From contig JAIMBE010000007.1 in NCBI GenBank assembly GCA_023511565.1, forward strand, positions 1 to 35,476: a stretch of DNA of 35,476 nucleotides. Reading direction: 5' to 3'. Below are positions 13,991-35,422 of this stretch, in pieces (position 1 is the stretch's first letter; every line of letters begins with the position of its first letter). A model generated the notes under the pieces. It was not told where the DNA came from. It did no database searches and saw nothing but the letters and a program-made list of their open reading frames with translations. The position numbers were made by a program, and so were the translations under genes. The DNA is from Bacillota bacterium (GTDB lineage Bacteria; Acidobacteriota; Terriglobia; Acidiferrales; UBA7541).

Positions 13991-14890
13991 TCAGTCCTTC
14001 CGTTTTCCGTTCTTGGGATACCGATACTGGTAATAAGAGCCATAGCTGGCTCCTGCCGGCACACAGTTCAGCACGGCGCCCAGCAACGGCTTGTCACGAA
14101 ACTCCTGCCGCACCTTCTGCGCGAGGTCGAACGGAGTCTGTGCCGCGCGCACCACCAGCAACACGCCATCGGCCAGCCCGGCCAGCAACGCCGCATCGGA
14201 GACGGGGATGGCCGGCGGCGAATCAATCACAATCCAGTCAAACAGCGGCGCCATCTGCTGGAGCAATTCCCGCATGCGTCCATTGATGAGCAGCTCGTTC
14301 GGATTGGGCGTCGGTCGTCCACCCGGAATAAAGAACAGGTTGCCCTGCGGGCTGCGCTGCACGACGGAGAACAGATCGGCCGCGCCGCGCAGGTAATCAC
14401 TCAGCCCGGGGTACAGGTTTGTGCCCAGCGAAAGATGCAGCCGCGACCAGCGCAGGTCAGCATCGATCAGCAGCACACGTCGCTCATGCTGACGTACGAA
14501 GACCTGCGCCAGATTGGCCGCCACGAAGCTTTTTCCTTCGGCCGGCAGCGCACTGGTGATCAGCAGCGTTTTCAGCGGTTGCTTCTCCCGCACCTTGTAG
14601 AGTCGCGCGCGCAAGGTGCGGAATTCCTCGGTGCCGGTGCCGTGGCCGTGCGACTGCAGAAACAGCATCGTCTGCGGGTCCGGATCCCAATTTCCCTGCG
14701 GGCAGCGTTCGAGCAACATCTCCAGGGTCAGGGCGGCCGGCTCAGCGGCCGGGGCCGCAGCCGTCGGCGCCGTCCGCTCGAACGGGACTGTGGTGGCCTC
14801 AAACCGGGCGGCAACACCAGCCTCTGGGGGGGCGTGCGGTGCCGTCCGCTCCAGTTCAGCTCGCTTCAGGGCTTCGTGAATGCGGCTCAT
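13991..14890 (-). CDS. XrtA-associated tyrosine autokinase (BY-kinase-like ATPase)
   Basis: A 299-residue cytoplasmic BY-kinase. The N-terminus MSRIHEALKRAE is typical of the exosortase-associated group. The catalytic core has Walker A (SALPAEGKSFVAANLA), Walker A' (LLIDADLRWSRLHLSLG) and Walker B (DWIVIDSPPAIPVSD). A C-terminal tyrosine cluster (YGSYYQYRYPKN) provides autophosphorylation sites. Such kinases cycle with the chain-length protein to control polymer length. The gene overlaps the AAA ATPase gene by 4 bp (ATGA) and sits two genes below the Wzz-like gene, as is usual in XrtA loci. Confidence 0.95.
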   Translation of the reverse strand: MSRIHEALKRAELERTAPHAPPEAGVAARFEATTVPFERTAPTAAAPAAEPAALTLEMLLERCPQGNWDPDPQTMLFLQSHGHGTGTEEFRTLRARLYKVREKQPLKTLLITSALPAEGKSFVAANLAQVFVRQHERRVLLIDADLRWSRLHLSLGTNLYPGLSDYLRGAADLFSVVQRSPQGNLFFIPGGRPTPNPNELLINGRMRELLQQMAPLFDWIVIDSPPAIPVSDAALLAGLADGVLLVVRAAQTPFDLAQKVRQEFRDKPLLGAVLNCVPAGASYGSYYQYRYPKNGKRKD

Positions 14891-15843
14891 AGTTTCCTTT
14901 CCCGTGGAGTTGCCGGCCGCTCTTCCGGCGCGCGCATCTGATCCACCAAGCTCGCCAATGCCTTCAGGGCTTCCAGCAAGGTGAGGTTTTCACCATTCGA
15001 CCGGTCGGGTGGTTTCGGCGCTACCGGCTCGATCCGGTCCAGATCGAACTCCTTTGCGACTTCGTGGATCGTTTCCGGGTCGACGTTTTCCTTTCCGTCG
15101 ACGAACGCGCTGATCAGGGCGTGCTCGCACAGCAGGTTGATCACCCGCGGGATACCCTGCGAGTACCGGTGGATGGCTTCCACCGCTTCTGGCAGGAACA
15201 GGGTTCGGCCGTCGCTGCCGGCGATCCGCAACCGCTCGTGGATGTATCCCCGGGTTTCCTCCAGATTCAGCGGGTGCGTTTTCGCCCGCAGTGTGATCCG
15301 CTGGCGCAACTGGCGCAGTTGTGGTTGATTCAGTTTTTCTTCCAGCTCCGGCTGTCCCGCCAGAACAATCTGGAGCAGCTTTTCGGTCGCCGTCTCCAGA
15401 TTGGTCAGCAAGCGGATCTCTTCGAGCACCTGGGGCGAAAGGTTCTGCGCCTCATCCACGACAAGCACGGCGGTTTCTCCCGCCTTGTAGCGATCGAGCA
15501 ACCACTGGTTCAGCTTGAGCAACACCTGGCTCTTCTGTTTCGTATCGCAGGGGATTCCGAAATCCGCCATCATGAAGTCGAGGAACTGCGAAACGTTCAG
15601 CCGGGAATTGAACACAAAGGCGGTGGCCACCCGCTCGCGGCGCAGCCAATCGAGGAGTTTGTTCAGCAGTGTGGTTTTCCCGGTACCGACTTCGCCGGTC
15701 AGCAGAATGAATCCCTTGCGGCTCTGGATGCCATAGGTGAGGCACGCCAGGGCTTCCTGCGTGTGCCGCGTGAGGAACAGATAGCGCGGGTCCGGATTGA
15801 CGTTGAACGGATTTTCCTTCAGACCGAAATGTTTTTTGTACAT
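14887..15843 (-). CDS. XrtA-associated AAA ATPase (ExeA-like)
   Basis: A 318-residue AAA ATPase of the kind found only beside exosortase polysaccharide genes. The N-terminus MYKKHFGLKENPFNVNPDPR is the family hallmark. Walker A is LTGEVGTGKTTLL, Walker B is AVLVVDEAQNLS, and a sensor-type segment (IVLAGQPELEEKL) and a GIPRVINLLCEHALISA lid follow. Its exact job is not established; it is related to ExeA, which uses ATP for envelope secretion assembly. The C-terminal 50 residues are Pro/Glu-rich and probably flexible. It lies 10 bp after the Wzz-like gene. Confidence 0.94.
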   Translation of the reverse strand: MYKKHFGLKENPFNVNPDPRYLFLTRHTQEALACLTYGIQSRKGFILLTGEVGTGKTTLLNKLLDWLRRERVATAFVFNSRLNVSQFLDFMMADFGIPCDTKQKSQVLLKLNQWLLDRYKAGETAVLVVDEAQNLSPQVLEEIRLLTNLETATEKLLQIVLAGQPELEEKLNQPQLRQLRQRITLRAKTHPLNLEETRGYIHERLRIAGSDGRTLFLPEAVEAIHRYSQGIPRVINLLCEHALISAFVDGKENVDPETIHEVAKEFDLDRIEPVAPKPPDRSNGENLTLLEALKALASLVDQMRAPEERPATPRERKL

Positions 15844-15853
15844 CCGTTTACCC

Positions 15854-17389
15854 TCAGACCCGTGCTTGTTGCGCTGGCGACGGGAGATGCACCTGCGTCA
15901 CTTTCTTCTTCCAGAAACGGGACGGTTTGTTGTTGGCCTCCTGCACCACGGGCAGCAGAGCGAGCGTGGGCAGGCCCAGCAGCGCTTGGACATCGCGTTC
16001 GTTGCGGATGGACTTGTCGCGCATCTCGAGCAGCACGGCGATGCCTCCGCCCAGCACCAGCCCGGCCAGCAACCCGCCCAGTGCGAATTGCAATCGGTTG
16101 GGATAGGAAGGCCGCTCGGGCAGATTGGCGGGGTCCATGACCCGGAATTGCTCGCCTTGCTGGTCGCGCTCGAGGGCTTGTCCCATCTCGGACTGAGCCT
16201 TTTTGGCCAGCAGCTCGTTGTAGAACCTTTGCGCGGTGTCGTAGTCGCGGGTCAGCTCCTTGTACTGCTGCTCCACCATGGGGCTGAGCTGCACCCGCGC
16301 CTGGTAGATCCGAATCTGTTCCTGCAACCGTTCCTGCTCCCGGGTTTTTTCGCGGATGGTCAGATCGAGTTGTCGGATTTGATTCCGCAACTGCTGGATC
16401 TGTGGCGGCTCGATCAGGCGGCTACTTTCGACCTTTGACTCTGCGGGCGGAAGGGCTTCCGCTTCGGCAATTCGTCGTTCCAGGTCCGCGATGGTTTGCT
16501 TCAGGTGTGTCACATCGGGATGGTTTTCCGTGTAGCGCGCCTGCAGATCGATCAACTGTCGCTTTCGCAGCTCCAGCTCATCCTGCAGAGTGCGTGGATT
16601 CGTGCCGATCTGCGTGCTCTGCCAGGCGACCAGTTGCTGCTGCAACTGGGTTTCGGCGAACGACTTTTCCTGCTGGGCGCGGTTGATCATCTGCGTCACC
16701 GCCTCCAGCTGCGTGCTCAGGCCCATCAGCAGGTTCAGGTTGGTCTGCTCCTGCCCCGGGAGTTGCCCAATGTAGCGCCGCTTGAACTCGGCCAGCCGGG
16801 CATCTTCCGCATCCAGCTTGGCCTTGGCTTCATCCAACTGTTTCTGCAAAAACGCTGTCGTCTGCTGCGCGCGGCTCTCCCGCCACTTCAGGTTTTCCTC
16901 CATGAACATCGAGGTGATCTGCTGGCAGATCTGCTGGGCCAGATGCCGGTCCGACCACGTGAAACTGATGTAGAATCCGGGCAGTCCTTGACCGCCCCCC
17001 GCCCCGGGCAGCGATTGCACCGGGGTCACTTTGATCGCCTGGCGTAGCCGGTCGATCAAATCCTCCAGTGGCACCTGCGCCTTTTCCCGTTCGCTGAACA
17101 GCGGGTAGCGGTCAATCAACGGCTGCAGCCGCGAGCGACTCAGGATCTGCTCCCGCATCGTGCCCAGACGTTGATTCAGCTCGTCGGTGATCACCGGAGG
17201 CACGAATCGATCAGGCACCTTCTGCTGTTCGACCAGCACCAGAGTCTGCGAGGTGTACTGATCCTGGATCGACAGCGAATAGCCGAACGATCCCGCGCAC
17301 ACCAGCACCGCCGGGATCACGATGACCCAGATGCGTCGCCGGGCAATCTCCAGATATTCTTCGATCGTCAGTTCACGGTGTCCGAACAT
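15854..17389 (-). CDS. XrtA-type polysaccharide chain-length determinant (Wzz/GumC-like)
   Basis: A 511-residue inner-membrane co-polymerase. It has an N-terminal Wzz domain with a membrane helix (about 20-40: RIWVIVIPAVLVCAGSFGYS), a long periplasmic coiled coil (about 165-395, rich in Gln/Glu/Arg) with RTLQDELELRKRQLIDLQAR and NHPDVTHLKQTIADLERRI, and a second helix (about 430-452). The short cytoplasmic tail contains MRDKSIRNERDVQALLGLP. The kinase domain is not fused but encoded separately by the gene at 13991. It controls chain length and couples synthesis to the outer-membrane exporter. The 52-bp gap to the barrel gene holds no promoter that I can see. Confidence 0.95.
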   Translation of the reverse strand: MFGHRELTIEEYLEIARRRIWVIVIPAVLVCAGSFGYSLSIQDQYTSQTLVLVEQQKVPDRFVPPVITDELNQRLGTMREQILSRSRLQPLIDRYPLFSEREKAQVPLEDLIDRLRQAIKVTPVQSLPGAGGGQGLPGFYISFTWSDRHLAQQICQQITSMFMEENLKWRESRAQQTTAFLQKQLDEAKAKLDAEDARLAEFKRRYIGQLPGQEQTNLNLLMGLSTQLEAVTQMINRAQQEKSFAETQLQQQLVAWQSTQIGTNPRTLQDELELRKRQLIDLQARYTENHPDVTHLKQTIADLERRIAEAEALPPAESKVESSRLIEPPQIQQLRNQIRQLDLTIREKTREQERLQEQIRIYQARVQLSPMVEQQYKELTRDYDTAQRFYNELLAKKAQSEMGQALERDQQGEQFRVMDPANLPERPSYPNRLQFALGGLLAGLVLGGGIAVLLEMRDKSIRNERDVQALLGLPTLALLPVVQEANNKPSRFWKKKVTQVHLPSPAQQARV

Positions 17390-17441
17390 GGTTCCCCGAC
17401 TTTCGTGGTTTGGGACGGCGTCCGTCCCGGTTTTCTATGCG

Positions 17442-18911
17442 TTACTCGATCTCAATCGGCCGGTAGCCGAACCGGAATCCGATTCCGAACATATGTCGCA
17501 GCATCACCCTCCCGCACTCGGTTCCCACGCAGATGGGGAAGCTGGACTGCTGCCGCTGCACGTCGTAGCTGAAGAAAATATCCGTGTAGCGCCCCAGGGG
17601 TCGGCCGAAGCTGACCCCTCCCAGCACGGAATGGAACCGTCGGCTGTCTGTCCCGCCGGTGGCAAGCTCTGAATTCCGCGAATAGGCCAGGCGCGTGTTC
17701 CATCCCCAGTGCCGGGTGAGCTGGTGGTTCCAAACCAGTTCCGCGTGGTGGGTCCGTGCACCGGTGAAGATGCCCGAGCCGCCGTTCAGGAAGTGGTAGT
17801 AGGAGAGAGACAACCGACTGCGTTGGAACTGATAGCTCAGCACACTGCGCACCGACCACGACAGCCGTCGATCGTTCTGCAGCCCACCCGGCGCCGACCG
17901 AATCAGCAGATCCGGACCGCCCGAAAGGACCAGGGCCATCCGGTCGCTGACCTGATGCCCGTAGCCCAGATGGAGATTGTGCGAGGTCACCACCAGGTCC
18001 GAACCGATGAACCAGAACCGACCGTGCGTGTACCCTACGGCGAGAGTGTCCTGGGGGCGGATCAGATAGTTGTAGCCGGCGGAGAAGTTGGCGCTGCGCA
18101 CGTCCAGCAGGTCTCCATCCAGGAAATGGAGCAGCCCGAACGCACCGGACGCTGTTATCGAGCTGCGCCGAGTCAACTGCCGCAGCACTTGTCCGGCCAC
18201 TGCGTTGCTGATCCGTCGGCTGTCGCCACTGAAAAACGCCTGGTTGGGCAGCAGGGAGGTGTTCAGAACCGGGCCGCCCTCCCCCAGCCCGTGGCCGATG
18301 CCGATCTCCTGCGGATTGAGCAGCCCCCCTGCAGGCAAACCAAATGCGGACTCCGGCAGCCAGGAAAAGTAATCGCTGAACAAAAACTGCCAGTTGCGCA
18401 GGGTGATCCGTTGCGTGAATCCGGCCTGGTGAAAAAACCGGTTCCGGTCCTGGGCATCACTCCGGTGATTGGGAATCAGTCCGCCGCCTGAGTAGTGTGC
18501 GGTGAGCTGATAGTTCCGCCAGATGCGATCCACGGTGAGGCCAGCATTGAACAGACTGTAGGAGAACAGTTCCGGATCTCCGACGGTGGCACCGCGCCGG
18601 TTTGTGTCCACGGTCTGGCTCAGGTGCAGATAGGGGACAAAGTAGCTCCGGGTCTGTCCCATTCGTTGCAGCGTAACCGCCTCGACGCCCGTCAGCGGTG
18701 GCGGAGTGGTTTCCGTCTGCCGCCTCACGGACAGGGTTTCCTCCTGGTTGCGAGCCGCACTGCTGCTTTCGCGCGGCGCAACGGGCCCGTACGGCTCCAC
18801 GCGGTTGCTCACACGCGGATCCCGGCTCTGCTCTTTCTGCTGGGCCGCGATCGGGGGGACGCAGAGCAGGAGTCCAAATGCGAGGCCGACCACCAACCGT
18901 ATGCGTATCAT
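17442..18911 (-). CDS. Outer-membrane beta-barrel protein of the EPS locus
   Basis: A 489-residue protein with a Sec signal peptide (MIRIRLVVGLAFGLLLCVPPIAAQQ, cleavage likely near AQQ). A low-complexity linker follows, then repeated alternating amphipathic strands with aromatic ends (for example LHLGYGHQVSDRMALVLSGG) down to a C-terminal strand ending FGYRPIEIE. This matches the large hypothetical barrel proteins associated with PEP-CTERM/XrtA polysaccharide clusters. A role in export or outer-membrane anchoring of the polymer is inferred from position between wza-like and wzz-like genes. The last residue is Glu rather than the usual aromatic residue. Confidence 0.88.
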   Translation of the reverse strand: MIRIRLVVGLAFGLLLCVPPIAAQQKEQSRDPRVSNRVEPYGPVAPRESSSAARNQEETLSVRRQTETTPPPLTGVEAVTLQRMGQTRSYFVPYLHLSQTVDTNRRGATVGDPELFSYSLFNAGLTVDRIWRNYQLTAHYSGGGLIPNHRSDAQDRNRFFHQAGFTQRITLRNWQFLFSDYFSWLPESAFGLPAGGLLNPQEIGIGHGLGEGGPVLNTSLLPNQAFFSGDSRRISNAVAGQVLRQLTRRSSITASGAFGLLHFLDGDLLDVRSANFSAGYNYLIRPQDTLAVGYTHGRFWFIGSDLVVTSHNLHLGYGHQVSDRMALVLSGGPDLLIRSAPGGLQNDRRLSWSVRSVLSYQFQRSRLSLSYYHFLNGGSGIFTGARTHHAELVWNHQLTRHWGWNTRLAYSRNSELATGGTDSRRFHSVLGGVSFGRPLGRYTDIFFSYDVQRQQSSFPICVGTECGRVMLRHMFGIGFRFGYRPIEIE

Positions 18912-18920
18912 GTTTCCCCC

Positions 18921-19535
18921 TTACGGGACGACAATCGTGTCGCCCGGTTTCAGTTCGATGTTCTGTTCGGTCCGCTTCCCCTTCAGCACGTCCTTGTACT
19001 TGAACGGATACCGCACCTGCTTGCCACCTTCATCCCGCAGCACGTAGATTTCGTTCAGGTTCGCCCACTGCGAGAATCCTCCCGCGCCCGAAAGCGCCTG
19101 CAGCACGGTCATTCCGGGCAGCAGCGGGTAGGCGCCGGGGCGGACCACCTCGCCCAGCACATAGAAGTGGCGGCTGTTGATTTCCGTGACGATCACCGTC
19201 ACCTGCGGATCGGCGATAAATTTTTTCAGGCCGCTGGTGATGTTCGCGGCCAGCTCCATCGGCGTCAGACCGGCTGCCTGGACATCATCCAGCAGTGGCA
19301 GGGAAATTTTTCCGTCCGGGCGCACGGGCACGGTGCGGGTGATCTCTGGCTCCTTCCACACGCTGATGGTCAGCACGTCCTGGGCGCCAATCCGATAGTC
19401 AGCGGACGGCACGGTGACGGGGGATGTGCGGGGGCCATTCCCGTTGCCGGAGGGTGCCGTCGTCGTGCGATTGCTGGCCGGCTGAGCCTGGAGCGGTATC
19501 ACCGTCAGGAGCAGCAGCAGGGTTTTGATTCGCAT
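18921..19535 (-). CDS. Polysaccharide export protein (Wza family), no lipobox
   Basis: A 204-residue periplasmic or outer-membrane export protein. After a signal peptide (MRIKTLLLLLTVIPLQAQ) it has the Poly_export domain (YRIGAQDVLTISVWKEPEIT, then VRPDGKISLPLLDDV) and one SLBB-type domain (FYVLGEVVRPGAYPLLPGMT). It ends ELKPGDTIVVP. The related XrtA-associated Wza proteins are usually lipoproteins, but this one has no cysteine anywhere and so cannot be acylated. It would form the exit channel together with the barrel protein encoded 9 bp downstream. ATG 19535 sits 30 bp after the regulator gene. Confidence 0.93.
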   Translation of the reverse strand: MRIKTLLLLLTVIPLQAQPASNRTTTAPSGNGNGPRTSPVTVPSADYRIGAQDVLTISVWKEPEITRTVPVRPDGKISLPLLDDVQAAGLTPMELAANITSGLKKFIADPQVTVIVTEINSRHFYVLGEVVRPGAYPLLPGMTVLQALSGAGGFSQWANLNEIYVLRDEGGKQVRYPFKYKDVLKGKRTEQNIELKPGDTIVVP

Positions 19536-19565: not shown

Positions 19566-20534
19566 TCACGTTGCCGTGGATTCATCCAGACCGATTTGTT
19601 TGAGCTTGTAGAGCAGCGCCTTGTAGCTGATTTGTAATTCCTGCGCGGCCCGCTTGCGGTTCCAGCGCGTGCGCGACAGCACTTTCAGGATCAATTCCCG
19701 TTCGGCCTGCCGGGAAGCGGCGCGGGCGGCTTCCTTCAGGGAGATGCCCTGGGCCCCGCCGTTCTTGCGTCGCACTTCGGCGGTCTGCCCGTTCAGCTCC
19801 GCCAGCACGGCACGCTCATCGCCCAGCGCGACAATTTTCTTCACTGTGTTTTCCAGCTCCCGGATGTTGCCGGGCCAGGAATGATCCGTCAGAGCGCGCA
19901 GGGCTCGCGACGTCAGCACTGGCTGCGGGCGACCAAACAGATCCGCGTACTTCCTCAGAAAATGCTCCACCAACAGCGGGATGTCTTTCTTGCAATGGCG
20001 CAGCGGGGGTAGCCGCAGGCAAACCCCGTTGATCCGGTAGTAGAGTTCTTCGCGGAAGCGCCCGGCGCGCATCAGCTCTTCCAGGGAGCGACTGGTCGAG
20101 CAGATCAATCGCGCTTCCGGCAGCGACTGGGCTCCGTTGCTCTCCGGCAGCACGTGCAACAGTTTCGGTTGCAGGACAGGGTCCAGCTCTGCGACCTCGT
20201 CGAGAAACAGGGTCCCGCCGAAGCCATTCGCGCCCAGACCCGCTTCTCCACGCAGCAGCCGATCGAGCGTCTCCAGATGCGTCAGCGCCGCGCAGTTCAC
20301 CTTGATGAACGGTTTCTGGCTCCGCCGCGAGCGTCGGTGCAGCTCCAGCGCAACGACTTCTTTGCCGGTTCCACTCTCCCCGTGCAGCAACACGGGAATA
20401 TCCGTGGGGGCGATGTCCTTGATGAATCGCTCCAGGGCCTGCATTGCAGGACTGCTCCCGCAGATAAACGACCGCACTTCCGCTCCGGCCAGCGGGTCTT
20501 CGAGCACCATCGCTTCCGTTACCTTGAGTTCCAT
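19566..20534 (-). CDS. Degenerate sigma-54-type AAA+/Fis regulator without GAFTGA
   Basis: A 322-residue NtrC-family protein without a receiver. It keeps Walker A (LLHGESGTGKEVVALELH), Walker B (GTLFLDEVAEL), the SWPGNIRELEN sensor-2 segment and a Fis-type helix-turn-helix at the end (WNRKRAAQELQISYKALLYK). Between NCAAL and GTLFLDE there are only 22 residues (THLETLDRLLRGEAGLGANG, then FG), about 11 fewer than in its two relatives in this window, and GAFTGA is gone. The usual PPLRERxxDIP is PPLRHCKKDIP, losing one arginine. ATG 20534 has GGAGG 5 nt away; TTG 20555 is less likely. First gene of the long EPS operon; probably a DNA-binding modulator rather than a classical activator. Confidence 0.9.
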   Translation of the reverse strand: MELKVTEAMVLEDPLAGAEVRSFICGSSPAMQALERFIKDIAPTDIPVLLHGESGTGKEVVALELHRRSRRSQKPFIKVNCAALTHLETLDRLLRGEAGLGANGFGGTLFLDEVAELDPVLQPKLLHVLPESNGAQSLPEARLICSTSRSLEELMRAGRFREELYYRINGVCLRLPPLRHCKKDIPLLVEHFLRKYADLFGRPQPVLTSRALRALTDHSWPGNIRELENTVKKIVALGDERAVLAELNGQTAEVRRKNGGAQGISLKEAARAASRQAERELILKVLSRTRWNRKRAAQELQISYKALLYKLKQIGLDESTAT

Positions 20535-20591
20535 CCCTGCCTCCGGAATTTTCAAACCGGACAGAGCAATGTTTTGTACCCGCCGATAACT

Positions 20592-20607
20592 TGCACGGCG
20601 GATGCCA
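20592..20607 (-). promoter_or_regulatory. Sigma-54 promoter of the long EPS operon
   Basis: On the minus strand the sequence is TGGCATCCGCCGTGCA. GG and GC are exactly 10 nt apart, as in the -24/-12 consensus TGGCAC-N5-TTGCA; the -12 box is GTGCA. The predicted start of transcription is near 20582, giving a leader of about 47 nt before the regulator ATG at 20534. Confidence 0.6.
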
Positions 20608-20821
20608 CCCGGAGAGGCATGAAACCGAAAAAGCCTCCGTGAGTAAGTCTTTTCCTGGAAGTGGGTTGGAGGTATCTGTCTTCATCACCGCCCGCATGCT
20701 CGCCCAATCGAGTTCGAGCAGGCTTCCATTAAGTGGCAACAATTTTCCCTCGCAGCTGGCCTGCACCTGCCCTTGGGTTTGGAAAGCTCCTACGCTAAGG
20801 CTTTTTTTATCTGCAAATTGA

Positions 20822-20886: not shown

Positions 20887-20890
20887 AGAT

Positions 20891-20906
20891 TGGAAAGAGT
20901 TTTCCA
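20891..20906. promoter_or_regulatory. Putative enhancer site 2 (TGGAAA-N4-TTTCCA)
   Basis: TGGAAAGAGTTTTCCA is a perfect inverted repeat with 6-bp arms and a 4-bp spacer, centred about 105 bp upstream of the predicted xrtA start. A third copy differing by one arm base lies upstream of the TPR gene (23638-23653). It is probably bound by one of the Fis-type regulators; which one is unknown. Confidence 0.6.
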
Positions 20907-20977
20907 CACAATCGCCCTCAGCTTTTCATTTCTTCTTCGCAATAAAAGGCTTACGACCGTGTAAGTTATGCTTCGGT

Positions 20978-20993
20978 TGGCAGAAGGATTGCT
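20978..20993 (+). promoter_or_regulatory. Sigma-54 promoter of xrtA-epsI
   Basis: TGGCAGAAGGATTGCT matches the -24/-12 consensus closely: TGGCA, correct 10-nt spacing between GG and GC, and TTGCT. Transcription would start near 21003, about 33 nt before the xrtA ATG. Confidence 0.8.
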
Positions 20994-21036: not shown

Positions 21037-21933
21037 ATGAGCACGGTGACCGAGCGCTGGGCAGCTTCCGAGACTGAACACCGATTCGATTGGCATCGGT
21101 GGGTCTGGCCCGCCGCCTTGTTGGCGCTGCTGGTGGGGTTTCTCTATGCGGACGTGCTCGCACGACTCGTCCGCGACTGGTGGAACGACCCCGATTTCTC
21201 TCACGGTTTTTTTGTGCCGGCATTTGCCGGCTTTGTGATCTGGCAGCGACGCCACCAACTGGCCCGGCTCCCGCTGCAACCTTCCTGGCTGGGACTGGCG
21301 GTGATTGGCGGTTCGCTCTGCACGCTGATTGTCGGCGTGCTCGGCGCTGAGCTGTTCCTACAGCGGTCTTCCTTTGTACTGCTGCTGACGGGTCTGGTGA
21401 TCCATTTTTTCGGCTGGAGCTGGTTCCGCGCTCTGCTGTTTCCGCTGGCCTGTCTTTTCCTGATGATTCCGATCCCCTCGATCCTCTACAACCGGATCGC
21501 TTTTCCGCTGCAACTGCTGGCATCGGAGATTGCCGCGACCGTGCTGGCTGTTCTCCGGGTGCCGGTTTTGCTGGAAGGCAACGTCATTCGGTTGCCGTAC
21601 ATGATGCTGGAGGTGGTGGAAGCGTGCAGCGGACTCCGTTCGCTGGTCTCGCTCCTCACGCTGGCCGTCATCTACGGACATCTGTTCGAACCGAATCTGT
21701 TTCGCCGCGCGGTGCTCGTGCTGGGTGCCGTGCCCGTGGCGGTGTTGGCCAATTCCATGCGCGTCGCCGGGACCGGCCTGCTGGGCCATTACTGGGAACC
21801 GGAAAAAGCCCAGGGATTCTTCCATACCTTTTCCGGCCTGGTGGTCTTCCTGATCTCCTTGTTTCTCCTGTTTGCCCTCCATGGGACCCTGCACGTGCTT
21901 CAGGGGTGGTGGAGTCGGAGGAAAACTCTGTGA
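21037..21933 (+). CDS. xrtA: Exosortase XrtA (EpsH-type transpeptidase)
   Basis: A 298-residue polytopic membrane protein with about eight helices. It recognises the PEP-CTERM tail of surface proteins, cleaves it and probably transfers the protein to an acceptor in the cell envelope. The catalytic triad residues can be seen: Cys197 in VVEACSGLRSLVSLLTLA, Arg242 in LANSMRVAGTGLLGHYW, and His263 in GFFHTFSGLVVF. The N-terminal WNDPDFSHGFFVPAFAGFVIW is also conserved in the family. It overlaps epsI by 4 bp, as in other XrtA loci, and is driven by a strong sigma-54 promoter. The neighbouring EPS genes support the XrtA subtype rather than another exosortase. Confidence 0.97.
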   Translation: MSTVTERWAASETEHRFDWHRWVWPAALLALLVGFLYADVLARLVRDWWNDPDFSHGFFVPAFAGFVIWQRRHQLARLPLQPSWLGLAVIGGSLCTLIVGVLGAELFLQRSSFVLLLTGLVIHFFGWSWFRALLFPLACLFLMIPIPSILYNRIAFPLQLLASEIAATVLAVLRVPVLLEGNVIRLPYMMLEVVEACSGLRSLVSLLTLAVIYGHLFEPNLFRRAVLVLGAVPVAVLANSMRVAGTGLLGHYWEPEKAQGFFHTFSGLVVFLISLFLLFALHGTLHVLQGWWSRRKTL

Positions 21934-22790: not shown

Positions 22791-22806
22791 TGGCCCGAAA
22801 GTTGCT
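22791..22806 (+). promoter_or_regulatory. Sigma-54 promoter of the PEP-CTERM gene
   Basis: TGGCCCGAAAGTTGCT has TGGC and TTGCT with the correct 10-nt GG-GC spacing. The predicted start is near 22817, giving a leader of about 57 nt before the ATG at 22874. The -24 box lacks the A of TGGCA. Confidence 0.75.
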
Positions 22807-22873: not shown

Positions 22874-23596
22874 ATGCGGAAACGATTGAGTTGGCTGGTT
22901 GTGGTGGGTGTGGTGGGATTGTTGTGCGTCCCAACGCTGCAGGCAGACGATGTCACTGAGTGGGCGACCGGCAGTGGGGCCACGGCCGGCGGCCAGCCGG
23001 TAAGTGCGTCTGCGGTCATTACGGTCGGTCCTGGCGGCACCGTAACCGTTCAGCTCTTCAACAATCAGGCCAATCCCATCAGCCGGAGTCAAGCCGTCAG
23101 CGGCCTCATTATCTTTTTCAGCGATGGGACTACTTCCGGCACGATCACCAGCAGCTCCTCGACTTTGATCAACATTAATTCCGATGGCTCGGTCACCAAT
23201 CTCGGATCTACCTCGACGGGCTGGAAAACAGAGGCTTCCAGTGGTGGCCTTTCCATCTGCACCATTTGTCCGAACACCGGAAATGCTTTCGCTCCGCCCT
23301 CGAACCTGCTGATTGGTCCTCCAGATAGTGGAGGCACCTACAGTGCGGCCAACGCTTCCATTACGGGAATATTCCCGGGTCCTCCGGATCCGTGGCTGCA
23401 AACGGCCGCTACGTTCAACCTGAACATTCCTGGCCTTTCCCCTGGAGCCACGGTGGTGGGTGTGATTTTCCTGTTCGGGACTGACTCGGAGCAGGTCCCC
23501 GGCGTACTTATTCCCGAGCCCGGCACGATGGCCTTAGTGGGCACCGGCTTGATCGCAATTGGCCGCCAGTTGCGTCGGCGCCGCAAGTCAGCATAG
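22874..23596 (+). CDS. PEP-CTERM sorting-domain protein
   Basis: A 240-residue exported protein and the only visible XrtA substrate in the window. It has a Sec signal peptide (MRKRLSWLVVVGVVGLLCVP, cleavage near LQA-DD). A Ser/Thr/Gly-rich body follows that is low in Lys and Cys and probably beta-structured. The C-terminal sorting signal has the motif IPEPGT (residues 213-218), then a hydrophobic segment (MALVGTGLIAIG) and a basic end (RQLRRRRKSA). Cys129 and Cys132 form a CTIC pair in mid-protein. The ATG at 22874 follows a G-rich ribosome-binding region, and its own sigma-54 promoter lies upstream. It is likely a surface or matrix protein linked to the exopolysaccharide. Confidence 0.95.
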   Translation: MRKRLSWLVVVGVVGLLCVPTLQADDVTEWATGSGATAGGQPVSASAVITVGPGGTVTVQLFNNQANPISRSQAVSGLIIFFSDGTTSGTITSSSSTLININSDGSVTNLGSTSTGWKTEASSGGLSICTICPNTGNAFAPPSNLLIGPPDSGGTYSAANASITGIFPGPPDPWLQTAATFNLNIPGLSPGATVVGVIFLFGTDSEQVPGVLIPEPGTMALVGTGLIAIGRQLRRRRKSA

Positions 23597-23637
23597 GAAC
23601 AGGATTTTTGCAGCGTGCGGCTAGACGTGCGGTGAAA

Positions 23638-23653
23638 GGGAAAACTTTTTCCA
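23638..23653. promoter_or_regulatory. Putative enhancer site 3 (GGGAAA-N4-TTTCCA)
   Basis: GGGAAAACTTTTTCCA differs from the site at 20891-20906 in one arm base and in the spacer. Its centre is about 173 bp upstream of the predicted sigma-54 start for the TPR gene. The sequence could also form a weak transcript hairpin after the PEP-CTERM gene, so the two readings compete. Confidence 0.5.
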
Positions 23654-23744
23654 CTTCGGGGTAAGGCGGCTTCCCTCACGAACAGTTCCCGGTTACTGTT
23701 TCGACCCTCTTTCCCCCTCCCCGGTTTTCCCGAAGTGCTTTTGC

Positions 23745-23750: not shown

Positions 23751-23792
23751 GGAATAGGAGCAAGTCCGCGGATGGCTTTATCGTTTCGGGCG

Positions 23793-23808
23793 TGGCGGAG
23801 GAATTGCA
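23793..23808 (+). promoter_or_regulatory. Sigma-54 promoter of the TPR lipoprotein gene
   Basis: TGGCGGAGGAATTGCA has correct -24/-12 spacing and a perfect TTGCA -12 box. The predicted start is near 23818, about 80 nt before the ATG at 23898. Confidence 0.78.
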
Positions 23809-23897
23809 ACGCTTTGCAGCGGAGTGTTTTGTTACACCGGTCAGGATCGGCTACACGGAGTCCGGAAAAACGAAATTCGAGAAAGGTGAAGTTTCCG

Positions 23898-26192
23898 ATG
23901 CGTGCACCTCGTTGGTTTGCCCTAGCTGTCCTCATTGGTTTGACGGCGGGCCTGCTTGCGGGTTGTTCCCGCGACCCCAATGTCCGCAAACAAAAATATT
24001 TCGAGAGCGGCACGCGCTATTTCGAAGCCGGCCAATATCGCGAAGCGGCGATTCAGTATCTGAATGCGGTCCAGGTGGACCCCTCTTTTGCCGAGGCCCA
24101 TTACCAACTGGCGCAGTGTTACATGCGACTGGGGGCCTGGACAGCGGCCTATCAGGAGCTCCTCCGCACTGTTGACCTGGCTCCAGAAAATCTGAAGGCC
24201 CAGATCGAACTGGGCAATCTGCTGCTCGCCGGCCACGAATTCCAGGCGGCGCAGGAGCGCGCTGAACTGGTTCTGCAGAGAGATCCCAACAACGTGGAAG
24301 CGCACATCCTGCTGGCCAACTCGTACGCGGCGCTGCAGAATCTGCCGGCTTCGCTCGCGCAGATGCAGAAAGCCATCCAGCTCGATCCCGACCGCGCACG
24401 CAGCTATCTGAATCTGGCCTTTCTGCAGGCGAGCGCCAAGCAGGTGGCGGCTGCCGAAGCCAGCTTTCTGCGGGCCATCGAGCTGGATCCCCAGTCCGTG
24501 CCCGCGCGGCTGGCGCTAGGCAATTTCTATCAGCAGCAGCAGAAGTGGGAACGCGCCGAAGAACAGTTCCTGCGTGCTGCCGAGCTCGAACCGGGCAATC
24601 ACCTTCCGGTGGCAGCCCTGGCCCGGCTCTATCTTGGACGGAATCAACGCGAACGTGCCGAACAGCTCCTGCGGGACGCCCGGCCGCGCTTCACCAACAA
24701 TCCGGAAGGATATCGTCTGCTCGGCGACTTCCTGTTTGCCGTGGGGGATCTGGATCGCGCCCTGGAAGAATTTCTCGCTCTTTACGGTGAGCACCCGCGT
24801 GATCTGACTGTCAAAAAAAATCTGATCCAGTTGCTGATTCTTCGCGACCGTCTGGAAGAAGCTACGCGGCTGAATGACGAAATCCTCAAGGAAAACTCGC
24901 GGGACCTGGAAGCGTTGATCTATCGCGGACAGATTCTGAATCGCCGCAGGTTGTACGACGACGCCATTCAAGTGCTCCAGTCCGCCGTGAAAACGGATGC
25001 CAACAACGCGGTCGCGCTCTATCACCTGGGCGTGGCGTTCAGTCAGCTGGGCAACCTGGCCCGCGCCGAGAGCGAATGGCGCGAAGCGGTACGGGTGAAT
25101 CCGCGCATGAGCGGAGCGCTGCAAGCGCTCGCCGCCGTGGGTTTGCGACGGAACGACTTCGAACTGGTGGCCTCCAGCGCCGAAGGGCTGATTGCGGCTG
25201 AGCCCTATTCGCCCAACGGCTACGTGTTGCGCGCGATGGCCCGCATCGCCCACAGGAATTTTGCCACCGCAGAAGCGGACTTGAACACTGCGCTGCGCCT
25301 GGCGCCGGAGTCTCCCGTCGTTTACACCCGCCTGGCGGGCTTGCGCCTGCTCCAGCAGCGTTCCGCAGAGGCCGAAAGGCTGTACGAAACCGCTTTGCAG
25401 AAAGACCCGGCGCATGCGGAAGCCCTGCGCGGCCTGGTGGCCGTCTATGTGCAGCAGAAGCGTCCAGACCGTGCAGTGCAGCGCGTCGAACGCCAGATTG
25501 CCCAGGCCCCGGACAGCAGCCAGCATCGCCTGCTCTATGGCCGACTGCTGGCCGCCAACGGACAGAACGACCGCGCCCGCGAGCAGTTGCAGCGTGCCGT
25601 CGAACTCGACAAGAACAATGTGGAGGCCTTCCTCACGCTCGGTGCGCTGCTCGCCGCGCAGGGCTCGGTCGAAGACGCCGTGGCTACCTACGAACGGGCC
25701 ATCCAGGAAAATCCCCGTGAGGTGCGCAGCTACATCCTGCTTGCCGCACTGGAAGATGAAGTCCGCGGCAACTGGCAGCGCGCCCAGCAGCTCTACGAAA
25801 AGGCGCTGCAGGTGGAGCCCGACTATCCGGTCGCGGCCAACAACCTGGCCTATTTGATGCTGCAGCGCGGCGGCAACGTGGACGTGGCCCTCTCGCTGGC
25901 CCAGACCGCCCGGAGCAAGCTGCCCGAGCTGCCCAACGTAGCGGATACGTTGGCGCTGGCCTACTATCGCAAAGGCGCCTACGGCCTGGCCATTGACCTG
26001 CTCAAGGAAGCTCTGGAAAAAGCCCCCGACAACCCGACCTACCACCTGCACATCGGTTTGGCCTATCAGAAATCGAACCAACCGGAGCGGGCGCGCCGAC
26101 ATCTGGAGCGGGCTCTGGCGCTGGCGCCGCAGCATCCAGAAGCCGCCGAAGCCCGCCAGGTGCTGGCGCAGCTCGGGGGAAGCTCTGATTGA
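23898..26192 (+). CDS. prsT: XrtA/PEP-CTERM system TPR-repeat lipoprotein (PrsT-like)
   Basis: A 764-residue secreted lipoprotein. The signal peptide MRAPRWFALAVLIGLTAGLL ends in the lipobox LLAGC, and the acylated Cys is about residue 23. Almost the entire remainder is tandem 34-residue TPR units (about twenty), for example YLNLAFLQASAKQVAAAEAS and the repeated A-x-x-x-Y/F-x-x-A pattern. It matches the large TPR lipoproteins confined to XrtA/PEP-CTERM loci, whose role may be periplasmic scaffolding of export or sorting. The ATG at 23898 is chosen because the signal peptide begins there; the frame is open to 23772, which would overlap the sigma-54 promoter. It is followed directly by the deacetylase gene without a gap. 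Confidence 0.93.
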   Translation: MRAPRWFALAVLIGLTAGLLAGCSRDPNVRKQKYFESGTRYFEAGQYREAAIQYLNAVQVDPSFAEAHYQLAQCYMRLGAWTAAYQELLRTVDLAPENLKAQIELGNLLLAGHEFQAAQERAELVLQRDPNNVEAHILLANSYAALQNLPASLAQMQKAIQLDPDRARSYLNLAFLQASAKQVAAAEASFLRAIELDPQSVPARLALGNFYQQQQKWERAEEQFLRAAELEPGNHLPVAALARLYLGRNQRERAEQLLRDARPRFTNNPEGYRLLGDFLFAVGDLDRALEEFLALYGEHPRDLTVKKNLIQLLILRDRLEEATRLNDEILKENSRDLEALIYRGQILNRRRLYDDAIQVLQSAVKTDANNAVALYHLGVAFSQLGNLARAESEWREAVRVNPRMSGALQALAAVGLRRNDFELVASSAEGLIAAEPYSPNGYVLRAMARIAHRNFATAEADLNTALRLAPESPVVYTRLAGLRLLQQRSAEAERLYETALQKDPAHAEALRGLVAVYVQQKRPDRAVQRVERQIAQAPDSSQHRLLYGRLLAANGQNDRAREQLQRAVELDKNNVEAFLTLGALLAAQGSVEDAVATYERAIQENPREVRSYILLAALEDEVRGNWQRAQQLYEKALQVEPDYPVAANNLAYLMLQRGGNVDVALSLAQTARSKLPELPNVADTLALAYYRKGAYGLAIDLLKEALEKAPDNPTYHLHIGLAYQKSNQPERARRHLERALALAPQHPEAAEARQVLAQLGGSSD

Positions 26193-27270: not shown

Positions 27271-28350
27271 TCAGTCTGCCGACTGCTCTGCCGCCAGCTC
27301 TCCGAGGGAAACAGACTGAGGCCGTGCTCGTTTTGCCGGCAGGCCGGCTTGGCGGATCTTGTAGAGCAACGCTCGGTAGCTGATATTCAGCGCTCGTGCA
27401 GCGCGTTTGCGGTCCCAACTGTTCGCTTCGAGCACCTGCAGAATGACCTTCCGTTCCAGCTCGAGCACCGCCTGCCGGGTCAGTTTCTTCAGGGAAATGG
27501 AGCCGTCTGCCGGGAGGTGCGGGTCCAGATAGGATGGTTCCGGCCCGCGCGCCATCAGTTCGTCGGTCATGGCCTCTTCCGAGCCCAGAATCACGTAGCG
27601 CTTCATCAGGTTTTCGAGTTCGCGGATGTTGCCAGGCCAGGAGTGCTTCTGGAGCTGCCGCATCAGTTGCGGGGACACTGGCTTGACCGGCCGGTTGTAT
27701 TTTTCGCCGTACACGTGCAGAAAGTAGTCCACCAGTTCCGGGATGTCCTCGGTGCGCTCGCGCAACGGTGGCAGCTCAATATTCACCACATTGATGCGGT
27801 AGAACAGGTCTTGGCGGAAGTTACCGGCCTCGATTTCGTCTTCGAGTTGTCGGTTCGTGGCGCACACCACGCGCACTTCGACCTTTTTGTCTTCCTGGGC
27901 GCCGATCCGGCAGAACTGCCCGTCCTGGAGCAGCTGCAGAAGTTTGGCCTGCAGAGCGGGCTCCAGTTCGCCGACCTCGTCGAGGAACAGCGTGCCGCGA
28001 TGCGCCATCTCCACCCGGCCGGGCTTGGTGCCATAGGCGCCGGTGAACGCGCCCTTTTCGTAGCCGAACAGCTCGCTTTCCAACAGCGTGCCGGGGATCG
28101 CCGGGCAGTTCACCTTGACGAACGGTCCGCTCGCCCACGGCGAGTGCCGGTGCAACAGCTTGGCCACCATCTCCTTACCCGTGCCGCTCTCGCCGCGAAT
28201 GAGCACCGGGACGTTGGCCGTGGCCACTTTCTCCACTTTCAGGCGCACGATCTGCATCGCTTCCGAGCGGCCATAGATGATGTGCTCGGGAGGAATATCG
28301 TTCGTCGGGACTGACAGCGATGGGCGGGGCTGGGCCGCAGTGGACATCAT
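27271..28350 (-). CDS. Orphan sigma-54-dependent activator (AAA+/Fis, no receiver)
   Basis: A 359-residue NtrC-family activator without an input domain. After about 35 variable residues comes the intact AAA+ domain: Walker A (LIRGESGTGKEMVAKLLH), GAFTGA (LFGYEKGAFTGAYGTKPG), Walker B (GTLFLDEVGELEP), arginine-finger region (PPLRERTEDIPELV) and sensor 2 (SWPGNIRELEN). A C-terminal Fis-type helix-turn-helix ends the protein (WDRKRAARALNISYRALLYK). With no receiver or sensor domain, activity may be controlled by level or a partner. The start is ATG 28350 (MMSTAAQ); the frame runs open to 28740 without coding character. It faces the EPS deacetylase gene convergently and is preceded by its own sigma-54-like promoter. 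Confidence 0.93.
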   Translation of the reverse strand: MMSTAAQPRPSLSVPTNDIPPEHIIYGRSEAMQIVRLKVEKVATANVPVLIRGESGTGKEMVAKLLHRHSPWASGPFVKVNCPAIPGTLLESELFGYEKGAFTGAYGTKPGRVEMAHRGTLFLDEVGELEPALQAKLLQLLQDGQFCRIGAQEDKKVEVRVVCATNRQLEDEIEAGNFRQDLFYRINVVNIELPPLRERTEDIPELVDYFLHVYGEKYNRPVKPVSPQLMRQLQKHSWPGNIRELENLMKRYVILGSEEAMTDELMARGPEPSYLDPHLPADGSISLKKLTRQAVLELERKVILQVLEANSWDRKRAARALNISYRALLYKIRQAGLPAKRARPQSVSLGELAAEQSAD

Positions 28351-28729
28351 GTTCTCAATCCATACTGTTCTCTGCACACTGTGCGCCAAAATCCAACTCT
28401 GTTGCCGGCCTGTGGGAGTTTGTAGGAAAATTCCCCGGGACCTTTGTAGTTCCATGTAAACAAAGCGTTTAGGGACGAACCCCGTTCGCGCGTGCCAATC
28501 CATCACCCTGCCGAGAGGGCCGGCCACGGGCCGGTCTCGGAAGGAAAAGCTTTGCATAGCAAGGAAGTTTGTTTCCCTAGCCTGACGGATTTCTTCCAGT
28601 ACGGGAACGGAGGCTCGCCCAGGATCGGTTTTACACCTGCTGGGCAGGGGGTGCCGGGTCATCTTTGGCTGGATAAGGCTCGCACCGGATACGCGTCTGG
28701 GCGTATACTCGGTGGTGTCCTTCCCGCTT
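28351..28729. other. Divergent intergenic region between activator and transporter genes
   Basis: This 379-bp stretch has no gene. It holds a sigma-54-like promoter for the leftward activator (28373-28388) and a GGAAAATTCC palindrome near 28428-28437. A possible -10 box TATACT lies at 28704-28709 for the rightward transporter, without a clear -35. Confidence 0.5.
28373..28388 (-). promoter_or_regulatory. Sigma-54-like promoter of the orphan activator gene
   Basis: On the minus strand the sequence is TGGCGCACAGTGTGCA: TGGC, 10-nt GG-GC spacing and a GTGCA -12 box. The predicted start near 28362 leaves a short leader of about 12 nt. This is weaker than the xrtA, TPR and PilZ promoters. Confidence 0.5.
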
Positions 28730-31951: not shown

Positions 31952-32281
31952 CTAGGCCGTTCCCGTTTCGGCGCGGATGATGTCGTATTTCTCGATGACC
32001 GCGGCGATGCCCACCGGCAGCTCGCCGTTCTGTCGTCGCTCGACGCGGACGACGCGGCCATAAGCGCGAATGTAAACCTCCGGGCCGCGGGTGATTTCTG
32101 CCGGGAGGGTCAGCGTGAAATCGAGCTCCATGCCGGGGGTCATTTCCCGATGCACCGTGAAGTAGACGCCCCGCGTGGAGATGTCGCGCGTGCGCCCGCT
32201 GCTGTGCTCTGGTTCCGAGGCTGTCCGGATAACCACGGGCAGAGAAAGTTCATAACGACGAGCCATGCGGCGCTCGGTCAT
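31952..32281 (-). CDS. PilZ-domain protein (probable c-di-GMP receptor)
   Basis: A 109-residue single-domain PilZ protein. The N-terminal basic motif RRMARRYELSLPVVI contains the RxxxR c-di-GMP binding pattern (arginines 5-9 region). The second motif TRDISTRGVYFTV matches D/NxSxxG. Both halves needed for c-di-GMP binding appear present. ATG 32281 is used; the internal ATG at 32266 is an alternative that would cut into the RxxxR motif. A near-perfect sigma-54 promoter lies about 60 bp upstream, placing this c-di-GMP receptor in the same control system as the EPS and PEP-CTERM genes. Confidence 0.92.
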   Translation of the reverse strand: MTERRMARRYELSLPVVIRTASEPEHSSGRTRDISTRGVYFTVHREMTPGMELDFTLTLPAEITRGPEVYIRAYGRVVRVERRQNGELPVGIAAVIEKYDIIRAETGTA

Positions 32282-32341: not shown

Positions 32342-32357
32342 AGCAATCACAGTGCCA
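32342..32357 (-). promoter_or_regulatory. Sigma-54 promoter of the PilZ gene
   Basis: On the minus strand the sequence is TGGCACTGTGATTGCT. It matches TGGCAC-N5-TTGCW fully, with the exact 10-nt GG-GC spacing. Predicted transcription start near 32331, giving a leader of about 50 nt before ATG 32281. This is the best -24/-12 match in the window. Confidence 0.85.
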
Positions 32358-32633: not shown

Positions 32634-34073
32634 CTAATGTCCGGTCTGCGGTATCGGAGCTGCGGGGCTTGAGCGGGCTCCCCGTCCCCCATCGATTTTG
32701 AACTGGCGCATCTTATAGAGCAACGCCTTGTAGCTGATTCCCAGCAGGCGCGCGGCTTCTTTGCGGTTCCAGTTGGTTTTTTCCAGCGCGTCTGCGATCG
32801 CTTCCATTTCTGCTTCGTCCTTCAAGCTGCGCACCAGCGCCTTCAACCCTTGTTCGCGGGGCTGGGCCGGCTCTTCCCGCGGGGAGGTGCGCTGACGGGT
32901 GGCAGCCATTTCCAGCAGTTCGCGGAAGCTCGATTCGTCATCCTCCAGAATCACATACCGCTTTACGAAATTTTCCAGCTCGCGCAGGTTACCCGGCCAG
33001 GGATAGCGCATGGCCGCTTCCAGCAGGTGGTCGGAGGGTAGGCGCGGTTGTTTGTTGTATTTATCTGCGTACTTCTCCAGGAAGTGCTGGAACAGCATGG
33101 GGATCTCGCGTGCCCGCTCGCGCAGGGGCGGCACGTGGATGGAGAACACGTTCAACCGGTAGTAGAGGTCTTCGCGGAACCGGCCGCAGCGGATGGCCTC
33201 CCGCACATTCACATTGGTAGCCGCCAGCACCCGCACGTCGGAGTGCACCAGGTGCCGGCCGCCGAGCCGCGAAAACTGGTGGTCCTGGAGCACATGCAAC
33301 AGCTTCGCCTGCAGGTGGGTGGGCATTTCTGCAATTTCATCCAGGAAGATCGTCCCTTTGTTCGCCAGCTCAAACTTGCCTGGCTTGAGCCGTACGGCAC
33401 CCGTGAAAGCTCCCTGTTCGTAGCCGAAGAGCTCGGATTCCAGCAGCTCGCCCGGCAAGGCCGCGCAATTCACCTTGATGAAGGGTTGAGGGGCCCGGGG
33501 CGAGCGCAGATGAATCATCCGCGCCACAACTTCTTTGCCGACGCCGCTCTCGCCGGAGATGAACACCGGCACGTCCACCGGTGCAATCTGCAGAATCTGC
33601 TGCCGGATTTTCACCATTTGCGGGCTGGCGGCCAGGAAGCTGAGATCTTCGGTCAACTGCTCGCAGTATTCCCGCAGGGCCTGGTTTTCCGCACGCAGTT
33701 GCCGTTTCTGGCGGCACTTCAGCATGGCCGCATCGAGCTCGGATTTTTCAAACGGCTTTGTCAGGTAGTCATAGGCGCCCAGGCGGATCGCTTCGACTAC
33801 CGTGCTCACCTCATTGGAACAGGAGAGCATGATCACGTTCAGGGTGGGGTCGATCTGCATCATCCCGCGCAGGGTCTCAAGGCCGTCCATCTCCTCCATC
33901 AACACGTCGAGGATGATGAAATCCGGGCGGTCTCCAGCGCCGATGCGTTCGAGCGCTTCTTTGCCGCTGGTGACGGTTTCCACCTCGTACCCATCCACTT
34001 CCAGCAGCGTCTGCAGGTACTTGCGGATGCTGGGTTCATCATCCACGACCAGGATGCGTTCTTTTCCGGCCAT
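32634..34073 (-). CDS. NtrC-type sigma-54 response regulator
   Basis: A 479-residue activator. The receiver domain has acidic pocket residues in ILVVDDEPS, the phosphoacceptor Asp56 in FIILDVLME, Ser84 and Lys106 in YLTKPFEK. The AAA+ domain has Walker A (ISGESGVGKEVVARMIH), GAFTGA (LFGYEQGAFTGAVRLKPG), Walker B (GTIFLDEIAEM) and the PPLRERAREIPMLF arginine-finger region. The Fis-type DNA-binding end is WNRKEAARLLGISYKALLYK. It lies 30 bp after its kinase gene. In role it corresponds to the PrsR regulators of PEP-CTERM systems, and is the best candidate to fire the sigma-54 promoters in this window; orthology to PrsR is not proven. Confidence 0.95.
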   Translation of the reverse strand: MAGKERILVVDDEPSIRKYLQTLLEVDGYEVETVTSGKEALERIGAGDRPDFIILDVLMEEMDGLETLRGMMQIDPTLNVIMLSCSNEVSTVVEAIRLGAYDYLTKPFEKSELDAAMLKCRQKRQLRAENQALREYCEQLTEDLSFLAASPQMVKIRQQILQIAPVDVPVFISGESGVGKEVVARMIHLRSPRAPQPFIKVNCAALPGELLESELFGYEQGAFTGAVRLKPGKFELANKGTIFLDEIAEMPTHLQAKLLHVLQDHQFSRLGGRHLVHSDVRVLAATNVNVREAIRCGRFREDLYYRLNVFSIHVPPLRERAREIPMLFQHFLEKYADKYNKQPRLPSDHLLEAAMRYPWPGNLRELENFVKRYVILEDDESSFRELLEMAATRQRTSPREEPAQPREQGLKALVRSLKDEAEMEAIADALEKTNWNRKEAARLLGISYKALLYKMRQFKIDGGRGARSSPAAPIPQTGH

Positions 34074-35321: not shown

Positions 35322-35422
35322 GCACCCCTCCGCAGACACCCCGTAAGTTTTCAATCTTAAGATTTCCGAAGGTGAGGGTTCCTTTGGTTAGGTTGCCGTG
35401 TACAGGTAAGCGGCGATAAGGA

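Follow-up and report, generated by a model that had tools for sequence, protein, structure and literature searches.

Several enhancer-binding proteins (bEBPs) that lack the GAFTGA motif are known and operate with sigma-70, namely VpsR, HupR, TyrR, DhaR and the NtrC proteins of Rhodobacter capsulatus and Caulobacter (PMC3162934, PMC10274813). In the engagement of sigma-54, the L1/GAFTGA loop and the pre-sensor-1 loop act jointly (PMC2745333). NtrC of R. capsulatus requires the binding of ATP, not its hydrolysis, and a phosphorylation site is discussed for VpsR (PMC10274813). For Proteobacteria, sigma-54 control of PEP-CTERM systems through PrsK/PrsR is a prediction that has been tested in part (PMC1569441, PMC9850573), and two enhancer proteins can share their sites in Vibrio fischeri (PMC10162802).

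The stretch of 35,476 nucleotides analysed here (the window) contains an EPS operon that begins with the gene of an AAA+/Fis regulator without GAFTGA, which we call Q, and the genes of two GAFTGA-bearing paralogues, R2 and R3 (Table 1). VpsR of Vibrio cholerae resembles Q in that an AAA+/Fis bEBP fold without GAFTGA is linked to EPS, and its structures 7v2b and 7v2v match a model of Q with Z scores of 21.4 and 20.7. VpsR has a receiver-type N-terminal domain. Such a domain is missing in Q, whose operon moreover has a sigma-54 promoter, and a special kinship of the two proteins was rejected since it is not seen by profile score, Q being nearer to ZraR, NifA and NtrC1. The NtrC proteins of R. 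capsulatus and Caulobacter, HupR and TyrR resemble Q in being ordinary bEBPs apart from an L1 deletion, and the need of R. capsulatus NtrC for ATP binding alone fits the retained P-loop and the eroded Walker B of Q and its relatives. These proteins differ, however, in architecture and regulon and are not reported to head a sigma-54 operon with an operator shared by GAFTGA-bearing paralogues. PrsR (TIGR02915), the PEP-CTERM response regulator that acts with PrsK, is likewise a bEBP that serves exosortase/EPS systems, and these have sigma-54 sites (PMC1569441, PMC9850573), but Q has neither its receiver domain nor GAFTGA, reaches only 203.3 bits against TIGR02915 (cut-off 502.6) and is matched from model position 136 on. 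R3 and its kinase are the PrsK/PrsR-like pair of the window. While GAFTGA-less activators are known, the Q clade and its circuit appear to be undescribed, no description having been found in the searchable literature, outside which most subscription papers lie.

Table 1 Coordinates of the features discussed in the text, given as positions of the window.
Feature	Position	Strand	Remarks
Q, AAA+/Fis regulator without GAFTGA	19566-20534	-	322 aa from ATG; heads the EPS operon
Walker A of Q, GESGTGK	20361-20381	-	Lys kept throughout the Q clade
Truncated L1 segment of Q	20217-20282	-	expected place of GAFTGA; 11 aa shorter; fast-evolving
Walker B of Q, GTLFLDE	20196-20216	-	intact in Q; eroded in 42/74 of the clade
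Fis-type HTH domain of Q	19590-19742	-	recognition helix ISYKALLYKLKQ
Sigma-54-type -24/-12 site TGGCATCCGCCGTGCA	20592-20607	-	precedes Q and the EPS operon
Palindromic operator AGGGAAAATTGTTGCCAC	20733-20750	-	143 nt upstream of the -24 site of Q
Second operator-like palindrome TTGGAAAGAGTTTTCCAC	20890-20907	+	xrtA side
Sigma-54-type site TGGCAGAAGGATTGCT	20978-20993	+	ahead of xrtA
Exosortase xrtA	21037-21933	+	divergent from Q
Polysaccharide export gene (TIGR03027-like)	18921-19535	-	next after Q
Rest of EPS assembly block	13991-18911	-	489-aa protein without Pfam or NCBIfam match, chain length determinant, XrtA-type ATPase, tyrosine kinase
Operator AGGGAAAACTTTTTCCAC	23637-23654	+	upstream of TPR (PrsT-like) gene 23772-26192
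R2, GAFTGA-bearing single-domain paralogue	27271-28350	-	HTH ISYRALLYKIRQ
Sigma-54-type site TGGCGCACAGTGTGCA	28373-28388	-	upstream of R2
Two operator-like palindromes	28541-28578	-	upstream of R2
R3, GAFTGA-bearing response regulator	32634-34073	-	receiver, AAA+ and Fis HTH, ISYKALLYKMRQ
Histidine kinase paired with R3	34104-35354	-	

Q carries the complete domain set of a bEBP, comprising the AAA+ sigma-54 interaction domain, the lid and a Fis-type helix-turn-helix (HTH) (Pfam Sigma54_activat, AAA_lid_14 and HTH_8); an alternative TTG start at 20555 would extend the protein to 329 aa. Its AlphaFold model (mean pLDDT 86) matches the domains of NtrC1, NtrX, FlrC, FleQ and VpsR at Z 20-24, from which an intact fold is predicted. 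Motifs were compared in an alignment of Q with 115 other matches, in which GAFTGA was not found in Q and FREELYYR is present. The alignment bears out what a sequence-only reading of the same DNA had described as intact (Walker A, Walker B, sensor 2, which reads PGNIRELE, and the Fis HTH) and as shortened, that is a segment without GAFTGA lacking about 11 residues and the loop before sensor 1. From VNCAAL to LDE there are 35 residues in Q as compared to 46 in every GAFTGA-bearing relative, R2 and R3 included, and because the latter length is invariant the loss in L1 amounts to exactly 11 residues. The pre-sensor-1 segment, measured from Walker B to FRE, comprises 46 residues in Q and 52 in the paralogues. 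The shortening of both loops fits their joint work on sigma-54. A change of PPLRER to PPLRHC, also reported before, is indeed present in Q but does not belong to a conserved change: the cysteine is found in 2 of 74 clade members and arginine in the other 72, and we therefore regard it as a local change, a quirk of the genus, outside the shared lesion. An alteration absent from that reading concerns sensor 1, which is CSTSR instead of CATNR. Q itself keeps the switch Asn, Walker A, the DE of Walker B, the arginine fingers (R-fingers) and sensor 2, and is without the sensor-1 Asn only.

Searches of related genomes and of a genome collection yielded 74 distinct GAFTGA-less relatives of Q, nearly all labelled Acidobacteriota; the hosts are soil and groundwater Acidobacteriota. 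One contig labelled Verrucomicrobia (L052) bears a Q gene near-identical to those of Acidobacteria gp1 and is probably misbinned. Orthologues with an intact GAFTGA, which would have indicated a local lesion, were looked for; the motif occurs in none of the 74 proteins, and the shortened loop does not represent a local lesion. A quick maximum-likelihood tree, built with VpsR, TyrR and similar bEBPs left aside, places the 74 proteins together to one side of a branch supported by an SH-aLRT of 99 and the R2-type and R3-type proteins to the other, with a single change of state.

Conservation within the clade is distributed unevenly. The HTH is the best-conserved part (mean pairwise identity 81%) and L1 reaches 14%, the inverse of R2-type proteins with 79% in L1 and 67% in the HTH. 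In a comparison of two species, represented by the window and a sister genome with an 87% identical Q protein, dN/dS is 0.105 for Q overall, 0.012 for the HTH, 0.037 for the initial portion of the AAA+ domain and 0.245 for the L1 remnant, as compared to 0.124 for R2 and 0.138 for the export gene. Q is under purifying selection, like R2 and the export gene. Chance is excluded as the cause of the missing GAFTGA, given its absence from all 74 relatives and the purifying selection on the gene; a local frameshift or deletion, an assembly artefact and a pseudogene are ruled out by the 74 relatives, synteny and dN/dS.

Retained in the clade are the P-loop Lys (74/74), R-finger 1 (70/74), R-finger 2 (62/74) and the sensor-2 Arg (66/74). 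Other positions are eroded, with the switch Asn present in 7, the Walker B Asp in 43 and the Walker B Glu in 58 of the 74 proteins; the sensor-1 Asn is found in 4/74 as compared to 40/42 of the GAFTGA-bearing relatives. The five residues of the hydrolysis and relay set (N87-D119-E120-N155-R174, i.e. switch Asn, Walker B DE, sensor-1 Asn and R-finger) occur together in 0/74 Q proteins and in 30/42 GAFTGA-bearing relatives. The clade-wide deletion of L1 and the erosion of relay residues in the switch Asn, Walker B and sensor 1 lend good support to the earlier suspicion that Q is probably unable to open sigma-54 complexes. The loss of ATPase relay residues from some clade members could also be taken as the mark of a functionless, decaying duplicate. 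We find this hardly credible: the low dN/dS of Q overall and of its HTH in particular, the near-invariance of the HTH across 74 proteins and the fixed operon position all stand against it.

That Q comes first in the EPS operon, as had been stated, holds across the clade. Of 51 loci with sufficient sequence, 50 have the export gene next to Q; after it there usually come the same EPS assembly genes, and a divergent xrtA lies within 4 kb in 28 of 44 loci. In L119 and L122, genomes in which the related-genome search found no Q ortholog, and in L098, the place directly before an export gene that Q occupies elsewhere is taken by an R2-type GAFTGA-bearing regulator. The second EPS-operon gene (17442-18911, minus strand) encodes a 489-aa protein to which no Pfam or NCBIfam family matched; the gene is syntenic, with 25-35% identity in most loci, and its product is possibly an outer-membrane beta-barrel.

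A -24/-12 site, defined as GG-N10-GC with a score of at least 9/11, is present upstream of Q in 43/55 loci, with 1.9 expected by shuffling, and commonly lies 65-95 nt before the ATG; the genome-search set, which overlaps the 55-locus set, has it in 21 of 26 Q loci. The site of the window scores 9/11 and so falls short of a perfect match. Operon-internal genes (export, chain length) have such a site in approximately one tenth of cases, and rpoN is present in the genome from which the window originates. A further sigma-54-type site, TGGCCCGAAAGTTGCT (22791-22806, plus strand), precedes a PEP-CTERM gene (22874-23596); a strong operator match upstream of this site was not found.

The operator is an 18-bp palindrome with the consensus TGGGAAAA-NN-TTTTCCCA. 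By position weight matrix (PWM) it is located ≈127-153 nt upstream of the -24/-12 site in 45/46 Q loci, a figure that holds partly by construction because the PWM was trained on the same promoter regions; the one exceptional locus has a chance-like match at -24. Tests independent of the PWM are the fixed spacing, shuffled controls, and the promoters of R2 and other genes. Scores of at least 10.5 occur 10 times in the window, as compared to 0.6-1.2 expected, and the top sites are all at regulon promoters. R2-type genes of genomes in which no Q ortholog was found (L121, L036 and L037) carry the same operator as tandem copies 21 bp apart, ≈146 nt before a -24/-12-like site, and the operator is therefore independent of Q.

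Every one of the 26 Q-bearing genomes examined encodes a GAFTGA-bearing R2 and/or R3, and nearly all of these paralogues have an ISY[KR]AL-type recognition helix. Among the eight bEBPs of the window's own genome with sequence, the SY[KR]ALLYK helix is found only in Q (ISYKALLYKLK), R2 (ISYRALLYKIR) and R3 (ISYKALLYKMR), three similar although not identical helices. We infer that the operator belongs to Q, R2 and R3. As a separate observation, GAFTGA-bearing R2-type regulators of six loci (L014, L015, L016, L017, L163 and L168) have LDG instead of LDE in Walker B and have thus lost the catalytic glutamate. Complementary defects, with LDG in R2 and LDE in Q, exist in G005, G017 and G027; as a rule this was dismissed, as both proteins have LDG in G033.

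We give even chances to the assumption that Q is a non-activating paralogue, produced from its own sigma-54 operon, that binds the enhancer of the activators and damps expression. In this view Q, a paralogue of R2 and R3, would no longer have the machinery with which these sigma-54 activators contact sigma-54, and strong selection has preserved its DNA-binding domain, its nucleotide-binding loop and most arginines of the oligomer interface. The sigma-54 promoter of the EPS operon would be fired by a GAFTGA-bearing activator at the palindrome ≈143 nt upstream, for which R3 and its kinase, and/or R2, are the likeliest candidates. As first product of the operon, Q may occupy the same operator or co-assemble with the activator, would not remodel sigma-54, and would thereby provide a built-in negative feedback on the expression of the EPS and XrtA genes. 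From the sequences we infer binding of Q to the operator, activation by R2 and R3 and a negative net effect. A product that is made only after the sigma-54 promoter has fired, and that is itself unable to fire it, would most simply be a feedback element, possibly of negative sign. Three mechanisms had been proposed by the sequence-only reading. Of these, feedback competition is now favoured by evidence beyond that reading, namely the sigma-54 promoter and shared operator before Q, the near-identity of its recognition helix to those of R2 and R3, and the inverted conservation of HTH and L1; a partner subunit and a sigma-70 regulator remain as rivals. A point against decoy-like feedback, however, is the retention of the P-loop Lys (74/74) and of the R-finger (70/74), which suggests a continuing role for nucleotide binding or ring assembly, beyond what a pure DNA decoy needs.

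The same promoter regions hold a second signal. A conserved TAxxxT hexamer resembling a sigma-70 -10 element is found exactly 17 nt downstream of the right operator arm TTKCC in 23/45 Q loci (offset 34 from the operator start); at every other offset between 18 and 99 the count stays below 6 loci. Hexamer and operator together look like a sigma-70 promoter with a -35 overlapping the operator. Q may accordingly depend on sigma-70 in the manner of VpsR, NtrC of R. capsulatus or TyrR, and bind the palindrome to activate or repress this promoter, with the GAFTGA-bearing paralogues using the same palindrome as enhancer for the downstream sigma-54 promoter. This alternative, the main rival of feedback, which we consider possible but doubtful, has in its favour the exact spacing and the reports of GAFTGA-less bEBPs with sigma-70, including VpsR for EPS (PMC10274813, PMC3162934). 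The hexamer is common in Terriglobales-like loci, but neither the window nor the majority of loci in its family, which conserve the sigma-54 site, have it, and support for a sigma-70 role therefore comes mainly from elsewhere in the clade. In addition, the resemblance to a -35 element is poor, the loci with the hexamer are in part interrelated, and Q itself is made from a sigma-54-type promoter. In the Terriglobales-like loci the hexamer suggests that the operator also serves a sigma-70 promoter, a point against the feedback reading since an activator or a classical repressor would fit it equally well. One operator might even serve two polymerases, as an enhancer of GAFTGA-bearing proteins at the sigma-54 promoter and as a -35-overlapping site of Q at the sigma-70 promoter, so that Q would switch the operon between polymerases or off. 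We regard this as rather unlikely; if true, it would represent a promoter switch built by duplication of a bEBP and deletion of its sigma-54 loop.

The retained arginines bear on still another role, that of a non-catalytic partner in mixed rings with R2 or R3, in which Q would aid DNA binding and assembly and lend arginine fingers, and the GAFTGA-bearing subunits would touch sigma-54. Among the 42 Q proteins with a non-DE Walker B, the trans-acting Arg is kept in 40 and the P-loop Lys in all; the block of lid and R-fingers is as conserved in Q (57% identity) as in R2-type proteins (59%), R2 and/or R3 accompany Q in every genome (n = 26), and heterohexamers of LuxO and SypG have been proposed (PMC10162802). 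Yet Q would sit behind a promoter that needs Q for its activation, R3 and R2 are complete alone, genomes without a found Q ortholog have working-looking R2/R3 loci, and the retained Arg may be structural. We consider such a partnership quite improbable.

The clade as a whole represents an enhancer-binding protein repurposed by loss of its sigma-54 loop, with the DNA-binding part now the most conserved, and warns against annotating its genes as 'sigma-54 activator'. Q lies inside a sigma-54 operon beside intact paralogues, and one can therefore test directly what becomes of a GAFTGA-less paralogue, be it a competitor, a partner or a sigma-70 regulator. For the Acidobacteriota an EPS/exosortase regulon is predicted, together with the sequences of its promoters and operators.

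Some minor observations concern c-di-GMP. Positions equivalent to R144 and R185 of the FleQ c-di-GMP site, read from the alignment, have Arg in 18/74 and 24/74 clade members, and position 70 at this FleQ-type site is Leu in the Q of the window. When the window's own genome was searched for the operator with up to 3 mismatches, matches outside the window were mostly by unrelated ORFs, with one exception that precedes a PilZ gene. The best genome-wide match (2 mismatches; L123, G000:C74, 1141-1158) lies 78 nt ahead of a PilZ-domain gene (1219-1593). Within the window, a PilZ-domain protein is encoded downstream of R3 (31952-32281, minus strand) with a full-score sigma-54 site, TGGCACTGTGATTGCT, at 32342-32357 (minus strand), which suggests a link of c-di-GMP to the EPS regulon.
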